Positions 6,401 to 19,711 of a stretch of DNA of 22,137 nt are shown here, piece by piece. Origin of the DNA: a virus; the IMG/VR virus record IMGVR_UViG_3300037088_000067, positions 1-22,137 of that record; one strand, written 5' to 3'. A program made the translations under genes and the position numbers. The stretch's first letter is position 1, and every line of letters starts with the position of its first letter. The notes under the pieces were generated by a model, which was not told the origin of the DNA, did not search any database, and worked only from the letters and a program-made list of their open reading frames with translations.

Positions 6401-6968
6401 CCTCGGCAACCTGAAAAGCATCGCCCATGATCTTTTGGGCCAATGCAGCCTGTTGTGTGGGATCTTTCAAATTTTTGATTGCCGGGACCATTCGCCCCAA
6501 TAAAGTATATTGACCCTCCTGAGCTTGTATGGCAATTTTCATAGCACGGGTCATATCTATCCCATAAGCCTGTGAAAGTCCGATGGCATCCTGGGCAGCT
6601 TTCTTTGCATCCGGAGCCTTCATATTCTCTGCCAAGGCCAAAAGGCCAATGGCAGAATCTCTGGAAACGGTTGTTAATTTGGAAAGTTCTTCGGCAAAGG
6701 CGTGATATTGAGAAGAAAGTAATTCAGCATTTTTCCCATTAGCCGTCAATGCGGCAGACAAGGTAACAGAAGCCTTTTCAGCTTCACCAAATTCCTTAAC
6801 TGCAACAGCGCCGAATGCAATAATAGGAAGTGTAAGGGCCTGGGTGAGTTGGGAGCCCATTTTTGTGAGTTCCTTCGATACCAGATTAAGTTGTTTCTTT
6901 ACTTTCTCTAATTCAGTAAGTAGCGGGGTACTATCTCCCCAAATTTTGACGGCCAGACTTATTGCCAT
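3447..6968 (-). CDS. Tail tape measure protein
   Basis: This 1173-residue protein sets tail length and is the largest gene here, directly after the tail-assembly chaperones as expected. The N-terminal third carries tape-measure signatures: ELEKVKKQLNLVSKELTKMGS, an alpha-helical Ala-rich stretch, and hydrophobic segments at roughly residues 245-265, 268-290 and 295-313. A second hydrophobic pair lies near the C-terminus, ahead of the motif GDNPNATTDPEVIAPFSKL, which is typical of tape measures. Residues 340-528 are three tandem units of exactly 63 residues, and a fourth copy lies at 670-732; each contains a KYFGNLTLE-like core. Two further coiled-coil blocks (DAYKRLQKEV and IAYKDLEKEV) are also duplicated. 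At about 1.5 angstrom per residue, the length would correspond to a tail near 175 nm (an inference). Its start overlaps the end of the chaperone extension by 38 bases. Confidence 0.94.
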   Translation of the reverse strand: MAISLAVKIWGDSTPLLTELEKVKKQLNLVSKELTKMGSQLTQALTLPIIAFGAVAVKEFGEAEKASVTLSAALTANGKNAELLSSQYHAFAEELSKLTTVSRDSAIGLLALAENMKAPDAKKAAQDAIGLSQAYGIDMTRAMKIAIQAQEGQYTLLGRMVPAIKNLKDPTQQAALAQKIMGDAFQVAEAQAKAGLGPLEQMKNTIAELSESFGKIIVTGLTPMINGMKSFATWMDSLSETTKKWILGILAVVAAIGPMLFIIGKIPAILSIMINGFTMLIGVMKNMIMFLAANPWILLAAAIIAVGTALYLHVTRLTAAEAATKALNDTNAKAIEAVASEKQNIESLIKTVESETASKENKLKALKELQDISPKYFGNLTLEKVATEALSVANKKYTDQIDLEKKSIDGLISIAKNEKDSKDKRLDAINKLNSAEPKYFGNLNIEKNLTNDLTVASMGYSNQINSEKQLIENLSKTARDETKTKDERLQAIKKLNEISPEYYGNITLEKVETEKATQVTKLYCDALLAKARVEIATTEIAKLMAENDKIAAGVSDAGSLDFWQKLKAGVLSSAGGVMNFVGAMSAAQSSLQNTSEVLKNNNTQIDVYNKIIAENIDKIDKSGKSHATATAELGKELDAYKRLQKEVTDLQEKYNAELATSAKIIEGLSNEKKNVESLIEKIKDENTTKEDKLKAIKALQEISPKYFSGLTLETAGSELLTTATKNFTAACDGEISAKGANLEATGKLLITRKQDLDNIGRLIENEKNYIKTLEDESAIKKMASPEQREEPRMATGDNSAKTHKELIETLAKEQIAYKDLEKEVSGLQSQYNTEVATKNINSEATGKLLTQKKDELNNLERFIGDMKIEIGLMEQEVNLKKENKEEIKTVTPGMVFTPPAAKISPQKVDPNAGIKQAQTLGSVIDKVQSKLIDLTGSLGPLASSFGKTFSAIGTLIQGVASKFVDGWNSAVQEVGAVISSVVGVIGSIIDTSFANREKTMSDYYSNEKDAINNSTMSEKQKSEALTKIGKEEQKERKKLMREQAKDQKEISLVQAIIATALGIVTALANPGGVAGIILAALVGVMGAIEIAEIASQPLPSLAEGGLAFAPTMAMVGDNPNATTDPEVIAPFSKLKSLFQGNQQTIKLEGVLKGSDIYLSNERGGVQVQRIRGY
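4773..5951 (-). repeat. 63-residue coding repeats in the tape measure gene
   Basis: Within the tape measure, units begin at residues 340 (SEKQNIESL), 403 (LEKKSIDGL), 466 (SEKQLIENL) and 670 (NEKKNVESL). The first three are contiguous and exactly 63 codons (189 bases) apart, covering 5385-5951. The fourth covers 4773-4961 and is separated from the others by an unrelated segment. Conserved positions are an acidic/basic helix, the core KLNEISPKYFGNLTLE and a closing Tyr or Phe. Copies have diverged considerably, so the duplication is old. Confidence 0.9.
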
Positions 6969-16530: not shown

Positions 16531-16971
16531 TTAAATTTTTGTTATATGCCAGTAAACACCACCCCGATAATCAGAGCGTTTCATCAATTCGCCTTCAGGA
16601 AGTTTCAAGCCTTCATTAATTGAGGCTTGACAAATCCCAATGACGAGATATTTTTTTGCCATCTTTTTTAATTCAGGATAAAGCGCCCAAACCTTAAAAT
16701 CATCATACGTATATTGATCGGAAATAATAAGTTCGTACCTCCAAAGAGAAATATAAGCACAATCAATAAAATGAAATGCATCTCCAATGGTCTGTCTATA
16801 TCCAAAATGTTCCATTAACTTCATTTTCTCCTTGTCCTCATCAACAAGTATGACATTTTTGATCCCCGCCTTATGGATATATTGCACATCATTCTCACCA
16901 CCATAGGCGGCTGCAAACAGACAGAGTACTGTTTTACAATCTTTTAAAATATATTCAGGGAAGTTGCTCAT
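16531..16971 (-). CDS. Small Rossmann-fold methyltransferase-like protein
   Basis: This 146-residue protein has the layout of a class I SAM-dependent methyltransferase core. It includes a glycine-containing first loop (LCLFAAAYGGENDVQYI), an acidic end of strand two (VILVDEDKEKM), a conserved GDAFHFID, and a fourth strand YELIISDQYT. It is short and lacks a separate substrate domain. The start at 16971 is preferred over 16983 because it gives an ATGA overlap with the deacetylase-like stop at 16968. Substrate could be a sugar or small molecule given its neighbours; SAM binding is a prediction only. Confidence 0.6.
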   Translation of the reverse strand: MSNFPEYILKDCKTVLCLFAAAYGGENDVQYIHKAGIKNVILVDEDKEKMKLMEHFGYRQTIGDAFHFIDCAYISLWRYELIISDQYTYDDFKVWALYPELKKMAKKYLVIGICQASINEGLKLPEGELMKRSDYRGGVYWHITKI

Positions 16972-17639
16972 TCCGACCACCATTGAGGATGAATTAAAAG
17001 TTGCATTACACGGTTGTCTTTGCTATTAAAATCCTGAACCGTTGAAACCGGGTTGTGATTCCACTCATTTCCGCTGTCACAAAAATAGATATTGTTTTTG
17101 ATAAAATAGGTTTCGTATTCCAACCCAAATTCCGATAGGTCAAATTGTTCAATCGGGATAACGGACTGAAAGTTAAATTTCAGTTTCCAGATATTGTAAT
17201 TATGAAAGATGAGTTCGTTTTCATGTGCAACGAAGTGACCGGCAGTACCACGAACCTTTGCGCCGTAATCCCTGAGTTTCTTTAAAGGCGTTTCGATGAA
17301 TTCCCGTATCGGTTTAAATCTTCCAGTCAGGTACCACGCCTGGGCTGCATCGTTATGCCATCCGATTTCATGGCCATAACTTTGTATCTCGGTTATCTCT
17401 TTCTGGATATCCACACCAAAATAAGGAGCTGTATCGAGAACGAAATAAGTAGATCGAATTCCCATCTCGGCCTCGAGCCGGGCCATAAATACCGCCCGGT
17501 CAATACGCATATCAATATCGTGCCGCAGATAGACCTTCCGACCTGTTGCCGGTTTATCGTTTTCAATCGAAGGGAAAAACACAAATGGTGCCTTTATTGA
17601 TAGCAAAAATTCCCGGTAATCAGTGTCTTTAAAATTCAT
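16968..17639 (-). CDS. Polysaccharide-deacetylase-like protein, copy 2
   Basis: This 223-residue protein belongs to the NodB/CE4-like superfamily, close to the WbmS-type group found in O-antigen clusters. Visible motifs are YLRHDIDMRIDRAVFMARLE (metal-binding Asp in RHDID), STYFVLDTAPYF, YGHEIGWHND, LRDYGAKVRGTAGHF, and a final LLIHPQWW. The canonical NodB HxxxH pair is reduced: HEIGWH is present, but the second His after it is absent (HNDAA). It is paralogous to the protein at 19711-19058. No signal peptide is present, so it works in the cytoplasm or on nucleotide/lipid-linked sugars if active. Confidence 0.8.
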   Translation of the reverse strand: MNFKDTDYREFLLSIKAPFVFFPSIENDKPATGRKVYLRHDIDMRIDRAVFMARLEAEMGIRSTYFVLDTAPYFGVDIQKEITEIQSYGHEIGWHNDAAQAWYLTGRFKPIREFIETPLKKLRDYGAKVRGTAGHFVAHENELIFHNYNIWKLKFNFQSVIPIEQFDLSEFGLEYETYFIKNNIYFCDSGNEWNHNPVSTVQDFNSKDNRVMQLLIHPQWWSE

Positions 17640-17862: not shown

Positions 17863-18993
17863 TTAAAATTCATATAATTTTGGATTTCTTATAAATTCAA
17901 CAAATTTATTAATATTTTCCAGGTCTTTTGAGGTTTGTTTTTGAATCCCTATCTCTTTAAACTTTGCAACCATCATTTTGTAACTTTCCGGGGTGTTGTA
18001 TTGCTTAGTCAAATTATCATTATAACGATCACAGAAAGAAACGTCAACACCCATATACCTTTCAAATTCAGGTAGATTATACCTGGCTTTCTGGATTCCA
18101 TACACCGTAGAGGCGGCCATTTTTAACGGTCGTTGCTTAAGATAATGAATTATAAACTCTTTTATTTTTTTATCCTTAAAGTCAAGTTGTTGCCCCAGGG
18201 TTCCAAGTTTCCGGAAACACTTATAACAATGACCGCAAAAATTAGGTTCATAAATGCGATGATGACAGGAGCAGGCCAAATTCTTATAAGCAGAATCATT
18301 CACAATGCGCGTACTCAATATCTCAGAAACACCGGCCAACAAATACACCAGGTTAATCCCTAACCTGGAAAGTATTAACCGGATGTAATCTGTGCGGCCC
18401 TCGCTGGATGAGCTATTAAATTTGAAAGGATCGCCATACCAAAAAGCCATATCATCGAAGATGGCCCCAAATGTTATGTATTTTATTTTCAATATGTTTA
18501 CAAGTGGAAACATCAACCCAATGTAACCATCTCCCATATTATAGCCCCGGTCGTCAGGGAAATAAATTTCACGCATCAACTCCAGGTCAGTTTCAACCAT
18601 CATCGTCCGGGTGTTGTGCAATATCCTCATTTGACTCAGGTTAAAATCCGGATCATAGGAGCGATATAGATTAACCGGGATGCAGTCCGGGAACAAAACT
18701 TTTATTGCCGTTGAATCCACCCCGCCGGAATAACAGAGCAGTGTTTTATCATTGTCGTTTTCTATCTCAGGCAAACCGGCAATAGGAAGATCGATGTATT
18801 TGTTTCTTCTGTTTTCGCCACAATCATAAAACAATATCCACACCATTAAATCAAAAAGATATTTTTGCTCATCTTCGATGTCCACCGTATAATTGGCAAA
18901 AAACATCTTTCCCGCCACCCTGATCGTAATTGAACAGCCCTGAAGCACAACCTCGACCGTGTTCTTTTTCATCTCATAAATCAGCGTTCTCAT
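17863..18993 (-). CDS. PP-loop ATPase with QueC-like zinc motif
   Basis: This 376-residue protein contains a PP-loop nucleotide-binding motif, LLCYSGGVDSTAIKVLFP, with SGGVDST at residues 89-95, as in N-type ATP pyrophosphatases that activate a carbonyl via an adenylate. The C-terminal half has C241, C243, C253, C256 and C259 in CSCHHR..CGHCYKC, closely matching the CGxCxxC zinc motif of QueC (7-cyano-7-deazaguanine synthase). The protein is about 150 residues longer than QueC, and no other deazaguanine gene (folE, queD, queE, tgt/dpdA) is in the window. It might instead be a sugar amidotransferase, given its glycan-like neighbours. The ATG lies 14 bases after the tRNA-like element. Confidence 0.75.
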   Translation of the reverse strand: MRTLIYEMKKNTVEVVLQGCSITIRVAGKMFFANYTVDIEDEQKYLFDLMVWILFYDCGENRRNKYIDLPIAGLPEIENDNDKTLLCYSGGVDSTAIKVLFPDCIPVNLYRSYDPDFNLSQMRILHNTRTMMVETDLELMREIYFPDDRGYNMGDGYIGLMFPLVNILKIKYITFGAIFDDMAFWYGDPFKFNSSSSEGRTDYIRLILSRLGINLVYLLAGVSEILSTRIVNDSAYKNLACSCHHRIYEPNFCGHCYKCFRKLGTLGQQLDFKDKKIKEFIIHYLKQRPLKMAASTVYGIQKARYNLPEFERYMGVDVSFCDRYNDNLTKQYNTPESYKMMVAKFKEIGIQKQTSKDLENINKFVEFIRNPKLYEF

Positions 18994-19006: not shown

Positions 19007-19058
19007 TGGAGGTGCCGGGGGTCGAACCCGGTGGGCTGTGGCCTCTACCACCACCCCC
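19007..19058 (-). ncRNA. Minimal tRNA-like element (acceptor and T arm)
   Basis: The 64-base gap between two genes is almost filled by a 52-nt tRNA-like fold. Reading the minus strand, GGGGGTG (19058-19052) pairs with CACCTCC (19014-19008) as a 7-bp acceptor stem with one G-U pair, followed by A as discriminator. The T arm is perfect: CCGGG-TTCGACC-CCCGG. Instead of D and anticodon arms there is a single hairpin GTGG-TAGAGG-CCAC and a six-base linker. No CCA is encoded. GGTAGAG is reminiscent of a D-loop, so it could be a deletion derivative of a real tRNA. Its first base overlaps the stop codon of the deacetylase-like gene. Confidence 0.5.
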
Positions 19059-19711
19059 TATAAATCCCACCACTCCGGATGGATCAAAATTTGTAGCCTT
19101 CCGCCTTTTTCAAAATAATCTTTTAAAACCTCATCATTCTTTTCAAGCCACCGGCCATGACTATCCGAAACGTAATGAGTATGTCCGTTATGATAAGCCT
19201 CTATTTCCAGTCCAAACTCTTTCATTTCAAATACTTCACCCTTATAACCATCGAAGTCTTTAGCCTTAAATCTAAATACATTGTAATTTATATACCGGTT
19301 CGTATAACAGAAAGGATCGCCGTGCGAAGCCGTGACTGTTACATTAATCCCATATTTGCGTAACGCCTCCAGCGGCCGGTTAATTATTTCTCGCATGGGC
19401 TTATCTGTAAAAAGGCTTTCGGTGATTGAATTATTATGCCAGCCGATCTCATGTTTTAGGTCTTTCTGCATTTGCAAAAGACAATTAAAGAATTCCCCAT
19501 CATTATAATTCCAGTAAGGAGCCGTGTTCAAAACGAAATAAGCAGAATGAACATCCATCTCGTATTCCAAAAGTGCCATTTTACAGGACCGCTCCAGGTC
19601 CAGGTCGATGTCGTGCCGTAAGATTATACCTTTTCCCTCGGTATGAAAGTCAATCAACTGATCCTTAATCAGGTTCAGGAATTGGATATAGCCTTCTTTT
19701 GTGAAGTTCAT
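19058..19711 (-). CDS. Polysaccharide-deacetylase-like protein, copy 1
   Basis: This 217-residue protein is a second NodB/CE4-like enzyme of the WbmS-type group. It shows IILRHDIDLDLERSCKMALL with the metal Asp, AYFVLNTAPYWNY, LKHEIGWHNNS, LRKYGINVTVTASHGD, EFGLEIEAYH, and the terminal ILIHPEWW. All these have counterparts at equal spacing in the copy at 17639-16968, so the two arose by duplication, though they have diverged widely. The second histidine of the usual HxxxH pair is missing here too. ATGA overlap with the large terminase stop places it in the packaging operon. Confidence 0.8.
   Translation of the reverse strand: MNFTKEGYIQFLNLIKDQLIDFHTEGKGIILRHDIDLDLERSCKMALLEYEMDVHSAYFVLNTAPYWNYNDGEFFNCLLQMQKDLKHEIGWHNNSITESLFTDKPMREIINRPLEALRKYGINVTVTASHGDPFCYTNRYINYNVFRFKAKDFDGYKGEVFEMKEFGLEIEAYHNGHTHYVSDSHGRWLEKNDEVLKDYFEKGGRLQILIHPEWWDL

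Follow-up and report, generated by a model that had tools for sequence, protein, structure and literature searches.

A 52-nucleotide tmRNA-like element amid phage packaging genes and a wider class of message-less tRNA-like domains in phages

The DNA analyzed here, called the window, is the whole 22,137-nucleotide stretch of a 22-kb virus contig (IMG/VR record IMGVR_UViG_3300037088_000067), and a tRNA-like element of 52 nucleotides lies on its minus strand (19058..19007) within the terminase-portal-capsid gene block of a tailed phage. The gene upstream of this element (19058..19711, minus strand) codes for a 217-aa protein that resembles polysaccharide deacetylases by eye, without a significant Pfam match, and the downstream gene (17863..18993, minus strand) codes for a 376-aa protein with a DUF6395 match and a visible SGGVDS PP-loop motif. 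As a preliminary description of the locus had stated, the element starts on the last base of a stop codon, wherein its first nucleotide (G1) is also the final base of the upstream TAG. It had also been said to fill the intergenic gap exactly, which is not the case, as 13 nucleotides (19006-18994) separate it from the ATG of the downstream gene (18993). A scan for promoters and terminators around the element gave nothing above chance. The upstream protein and the product of window positions 16968-17639 are paralogs of about 220 aa (39% identical) that belong to one cassette between TerL and portal, and different subsets of the genes of this cassette are present in related phages.

Read 5′ to 3′, the RNA begins with the 5′ strand of an acceptor stem (GGGGGUG; 19052..19058), which is followed by a hairpin (GUGGU-AGAG-GCCAC, written continuously as GUGGUAGAGGCCAC; 19038..19051) at the place where the D loop and H2 helix of a tmRNA tRNA-like domain (TLD) would be, and then by the linker AGCCCA (19032..19037) instead of the GGAC that is typical of the TLD family. 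The T arm comes next, with the stem strands CCGGG and CCCGG enclosing the loop UUCGACC (19015..19031), and the RNA is completed by the 3′ acceptor strand CACCUCC (19008..19014), wherein U70 faces G3, and by the discriminator A73 (19007), all on the minus strand. CCA is not encoded at this end, where A73 is followed by CAA. The 7-bp acceptor stem, the perfect T arm and the discriminator are therefore all present as originally described, although the strand had been left unstated. All 12 acceptor and T-stem pairs are intact, and the single G.U occurs at pair 3-70, such that the acceptor (7 bp with G3.U70 and A73) and the T arm (5 bp with a UUCRANN loop) have the form expected of a TLD. G3.U70 and A73 are the keys for AlaRS and specify alanine in tmRNA and tRNA-Ala alike (PMC3968760).

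The minimum free energy (MFE) structure of the 52-mer alone, which accounts for 72% of the ensemble at -25.9 kcal/mol, consists of exactly the acceptor, the 5-bp hairpin and the T arm, in agreement with the claim that one short hairpin stands in place of the D and anticodon arms. A TLD-like alternative, in which GGUAGA forms the D loop and H2 has 3 bp, is less stable by 3.4 kcal/mol. The folding energy itself is unexceptional (z -1.4, equalled by 19 of 200 shuffles), and flanking pairings compete with this fold when a 151-nucleotide stretch is folded. The combination of features is rare, however, as a scan for a 7/7 acceptor, a 5/5 T stem and a TTCRANN T loop finds a single site in the window versus 0.073 expected from shuffled windows, both strands being counted.

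With G3.U70 and A73 intact, and with adjacent cassette genes that lack an assigned function, the RNA might be an alanine-charged minihelix that donates its amino acid to an enzyme of the neighboring sugar/peptide-type cassette. A related idea, an aminoacyl-transfer reaction linked to a nearby GNAT-like protein, was part of the preliminary description, which listed a processing signal, a decoy and decay as other candidate explanations. However, searches with Pfam, PHROGs and NCBIfam recognized no GNAT, Fem-type or aminoacyl-transferase family near the element, and the AlphaFold model of the putative GNAT protein is uninformative (pLDDT 31). The transfer idea is unsupported, given that no match exists for the supposed GNAT protein, and the RNA is absent from homologous cassettes in relatives. 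We consider a donor role extremely improbable.

Although the label ‘tRNA-like element’ was right, it overlooked both the alanine pair and the tmRNA-type character of the acceptor/T half. The covariance-model search that had been proposed as a check returned tmRNA (RF00023) as the best family match, with both tmRNA ends aligned, but at 29.6 bits (E 1.4e-8) the score falls under the gathering score of 47. The element has neither a tag reading frame nor pseudoknots, as only 20 nucleotides lie between the acceptor and T stem. Likewise, its fold contains no anticodon arm as a tRNA gene would, and ARAGORN, when run on the window, called no gene at the element. The 3′ half is more informative. A search of 84,980 species genomes for the exact 25-nucleotide sequence encompassing the T arm, acceptor strand and A gave three matches, each of them at the 3′ end of a tmRNA gene. 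ARAGORN calls two of these genes as tmRNA, and the remaining one, which belongs to a Chlorobiota genome, is identified as tmRNA by Rfam (151 bits). A relaxed version of the 3′ half is present in 89 of 395 genomes from the phylum of the Chlorobiota match, and 30 of these loci were examined, revealing 28 tmRNA 3′ ends, no tRNA and two uncalled loci. On this evidence, the acceptor/T half of the element probably has a tmRNA-type rather than a tRNA-type identity.

Similar small elements were recovered with a relaxed pattern in two unrelated phage contigs (L009 and L010), and most of the matches listed for a broader pattern are copies of the tmRNA TLD, 59-69 nucleotides in length, from which the message region is excised and in which the H2 helix is capped by a small loop. 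Because this broader pattern fixed parts of the acceptor, the search was repeated with the acceptor left free (UUUCGAC...GGAC...T arm), which yielded at least 95 distinct sequences. Among the matches listed, a 7/7 acceptor stem is present in 90 of 95 distinct sequences, in 24 versions, and G3.U70, which the pattern did not demand, is present in 90 of the 91 sequences that have six or more acceptor pairs. An H2 helix of at least 5 bp occurs in 78% of the class versus 3.6% of controls with re-paired halves (again among the matches listed), and all six pair types are found at nearly every H2 position examined. In an alignment of 31 TLDs, 97.1% of the cells pair and two-sided changes number 119 against 31 expected from shuffles, whereas every slid structure performs far worse. 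Members fall into two length groups of about 61-69 and 71-81 nucleotides, and many in the longer group carry an inner hairpin (e.g. CCGCACGCGG). Rfam matched the submitted TLDs of 62-82 nucleotides at the ends of the tmRNA model (57-77 bits), and ARAGORN called one of 90 members, as a tRNA.

Judged by sequence and covariation, class members are complete tmRNA TLDs, mostly unannotated, in which a hairpin replaces the tag-coding part, and we count at least 90 distinct predicted phage-borne message-less TLDs with perfect, covarying stems across many unrelated phages. Several reside in named phage isolates. An 80-nucleotide complete TLD adjoins four tRNAs in Stenotrophomonas virus Jojan60 (L139 1948-2027), and complete TLDs of 78 nucleotides lie within the tRNA arrays of Streptomyces phages LuckySocke (L251 2501-2578) and GiJojo (L252 1501-1578). 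Pontimonas phage phiPsal1 carries a 79-nucleotide complete TLD between the genes for its head protease and its major capsid protein (L253 2000-2078), and a TLD is located between the same two gene types in a metagenomic phage contig (L143). The examples from Jojan60, LuckySocke and phiPsal1 are unannotated, and a ‘hypothetical protein’ is annotated over that of GiJojo. Other TLDs directly follow genes for a DnaB helicase (L039, L209), a small terminase subunit (L247) or an exonuclease (L163).

When model R1, which was built from 31 message-less phage TLDs with the window left out, is applied to the window, the element is the sole match (31.8 bits, E 2.4e-5), but R1 aligns it only by deleting the entire D loop. 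The position of H2 is taken by the 5-bp hairpin, which is followed by AGCCCA where TLDs have GGAC. The unpaired D loop with GG..UUCGAC that characterizes TLD-only RNAs is missing, and for this reason we class the element as a strongly reduced relative of the message-less tmRNAs rather than a full member. Some Ala-tRNA-like sequences give comparable R1 scores (L057, 35.7 bits; L042, 33.1 bits), and thus the score alone does not separate a TLD from a reduced tRNA-Ala. These scores, together with the G3.U70 pair and similar acceptors common to both RNAs and a GGUAGAG in the middle of the element as in tRNA D loops, could be read as signs of a tRNA-Ala that has lost its former D stem and anticodon arm. 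The 3′ half is a better guide to the choice between tmRNA and tRNA than the R1 score, and its exact form occurs in tmRNA genes only, while none of the 30 similar 3′ halves from one phylum is a tRNA. Descent from tRNA-Ala therefore seems quite improbable. Four sequences (L042, L056, L057 and L091) that resemble reduced tRNA-Ala with an anticodon arm had been excluded from R1. Separately, we noted phage RNAs of 68-69 nucleotides with G3.U70 acceptors (L056 1178-1246, L057 3389-3457, L091, L064 and L123) that are possibly reduced tRNA-Ala, with a D arm that is tiny or missing and an anticodon-like arm (CUUGCAA in some).

The affinity of the 3′ half with tmRNA also raises the possibility that the element is the remnant of an attachment site, wherein a tmRNA 3′ end serves as the attP of an ssrA-integrating element and the 5′ acceptor strand is present by chance. 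Genes for tmRNA are frequent integration sites (PMC11915505), and a 46-nucleotide match in contig L031 adjoins an integrase. However, no integrase was recognized among the window proteins searched, the element resides amid packaging genes, and the fortuitous presence of GGGGGTG at a suitable distance is unlikely (0.002-0.03 by a rough hand estimate), making this origin very improbable. The 46-nucleotide pattern class itself (L015, L021, L031 and others) was rejected as probably attachment-site related, given its mismatch at acceptor pair 5 and the integrase beside L031; its matches resemble tmRNA 3′ ends and include 15 copies of one sequence.

The element has been seen in one phage only, being present in the window and, as a second and identical copy, in contig L003, which is nearly identical and represents the same phage. 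No named phage matched the locus at the DNA level, and relatives reached through the DUF6395 gene were the same phage only. There is no TLD-like match in 54 TerL relatives or in 14 deacetylase relatives, and a weak match in L313 is a bare T arm. Related phages with this gene pair but without the stems had been named in advance as evidence against the element, and such an arrangement does exist in the only relative that carries the same pair (L007/L258), wherein the genes are 6 nucleotides apart and the element is absent. In this sole comparable relative, however, the downstream gene has itself been cut down to some 20 codons, and thus the site is degenerate there. In L007, this remnant of the DUF6395 gene (6440-6502) directly follows the deacetylase-like gene.

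This narrow distribution, together with the loss of the D loop and of GGAC, favors the view that the element is a decayed relic, either of a message-less tmRNA or of a tmRNA piece without a D loop, that is non-functional and kept by chance. Some loss would be expected in a relic, but every acceptor and T-stem pair (12 in total) is intact, the T loop and the alanine determinants G3.U70 and A73 are preserved, and the 52 nucleotides fold exactly into three helices. We regard decay as unlikely overall, but as an outcome to be taken seriously.

The overlap with a stop codon is not confined to the window. After this arrangement had been seen there, we counted stop codons near 152 elements pooled from all loci, the window included, and found 38 in which a frame of 90 codons or more on the same strand stops between -60 and +12 relative to G1. 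The final base of the stop is G1 in three of these 38 (the window, where the codon is TAG, L163 and L247), G1 directly follows the stop in three more, and the stop lies within the acceptor strand (GGGGNTGA) in others. Counts of overlap with open reading frames from a plain ORF finder were set aside as unreliable in G+C-rich contigs. If RNase P were to cut at G1, an overlapping stop codon would be lost and the upstream message would become non-stop, and hence a substrate for the very rescue pathway that the RNA mimics. That TLD excision leaves the upstream message without a stop is a suggestive inference.

An acceptor and T arm suffice for RNase P. The element might therefore be a processing signal and nothing else, at which host RNase P and tRNA 3′-end enzymes cut the late mRNA between genes, leaving an idle 52-mer. 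Its location at a gene boundary on the coding strand, with G1 on the stop codon, is consistent with this role, and related elements also abut genes. However, G3.U70 and A73 are unneeded for processing, and the retention of G3.U70 in the class while neighboring acceptor pairs vary points to alanylation. We judge a role in processing alone to be improbable.

In bacteria, tmRNA is the molecule that rescues stuck ribosomes. The explanation we prefer, to which we assign slightly less than an even chance, is that the element is a minimal message-less relative of the tmRNA TLD that acts as a decoy on tmRNA partners. As part of the late polycistronic transcript of the phage, it would be released as a 52-mer by host RNase P and 3′-end enzymes, would receive CCA, and could then be charged by AlaRS and bound by EF-Tu. 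There is no tag message in the 52-mer, and thus trans-translation could not be completed. Instead, the RNA would occupy AlaRS and EF-Tu, as well as SmpB if this protein tolerates the absence of the D loop, and would thereby dampen host ribosome rescue during infection. We hold only tentatively that the window 52-mer itself is an active decoy. Contacts between the D loop and T loop are required for SmpB binding (PMC3968760), which makes the binding of this protein by the 52-mer doubtful, and a decoy for AlaRS and EF-Tu or a decayed relic is then as likely.

A precedent for the decoy exists in mycobacteriophage DS6A. Hudson and Williams (PMC4131195) state that this phage encodes little beyond a TLD and that tmRNA is strongly inhibited by a similar molecule whether or not it can be charged, titration of SmpB being ‘perhaps’ the cause. 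A 2025 survey (PMC11915505) likewise reports inhibition of the endogenous tmRNA of E. coli by the DS6A form. By analogy, the complete phage TLDs would fit this mechanism directly. Their near-invariant G3.U70 suggests that charging matters to class members, although charging would be unnecessary if they acted by SmpB titration only. It is conceivable, though we consider it speculative, that message-less tmRNAs represent a widespread viral strategy, wherein an alanylatable TLD enters or blocks host rescue, and that the window element is an extreme reduction whose excision strips the upstream stop.

According to the published description of the DS6A TLD-only tmRNA (tmRNA Website 11587; PMC4131195, PMC11915505), both it and the window element are phage-encoded and consist of little more than a TLD without a tag frame, but in the window element, at 52 nucleotides, the D loop and GGAC linker of the TLD are missing as well. 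Full-length bacterial and phage tmRNAs (RF00023) share with it the G3.U70 acceptor, A73, the T arm and the CACCUCCA 3′ end, whereas their pseudoknot body, tag frame and UUCGAC D loop are absent. Similarly, bacterial tRNA-Ala and the element have an acceptor, a T arm and the G3.U70/A73 identity in common, but the element lacks an anticodon arm and D stem and has a 3′ half of a type found in tmRNA genes only. The message-less tmRNAs of Mallomonadaceae plastids (~65 bp; PMC11915505) are also tRNA-like domains without a tag frame, but they are organellar and closer to other plastid tmRNAs, in contrast to the phage elements, which reside on mobile genomes.

Two accounts of tmRNA (PMC4131195 and the 2025 survey, PMC11915505) name message-less forms from DS6A and two plastids, to which at least 90 distinct, covarying phage examples are added here. 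The wider TLD class is a more important result than the window element. With it, one can ask directly by experiment if phages use such RNAs to suppress, to divert or to exploit the rescue of ribosomes, and its natural TLDs of 52-81 nucleotides offer tools to dissect the needs of SmpB, AlaRS and EF-Tu.

Several additional RNAs were observed in the course of this work. Microbacterium phages Skylord (L134 1947-2036) and Katzastrophic (L136 ~1940-2030) carry TLD-like RNAs of about 90 nucleotides, seen by eye, that have the acceptor GGGCCTG/CAGGTCC and reside just upstream of tRNA-Asn and tRNA-Gln; R1 scores of 36.9 and 22.9 bits, respectively, give partial confirmation only. A Pistol ribozyme match (L207 5224-5296; 42 bits, over the gathering score) is found on a phage contig that also has a message-less TLD. 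Finally, unannotated tmRNA-type 3′ ends near positions 1500-1536 in Acinetobacter phage BUCT628 (L129) and Alcaligenes phage QDWS595 (L130) possibly belong to full-length tmRNA genes.
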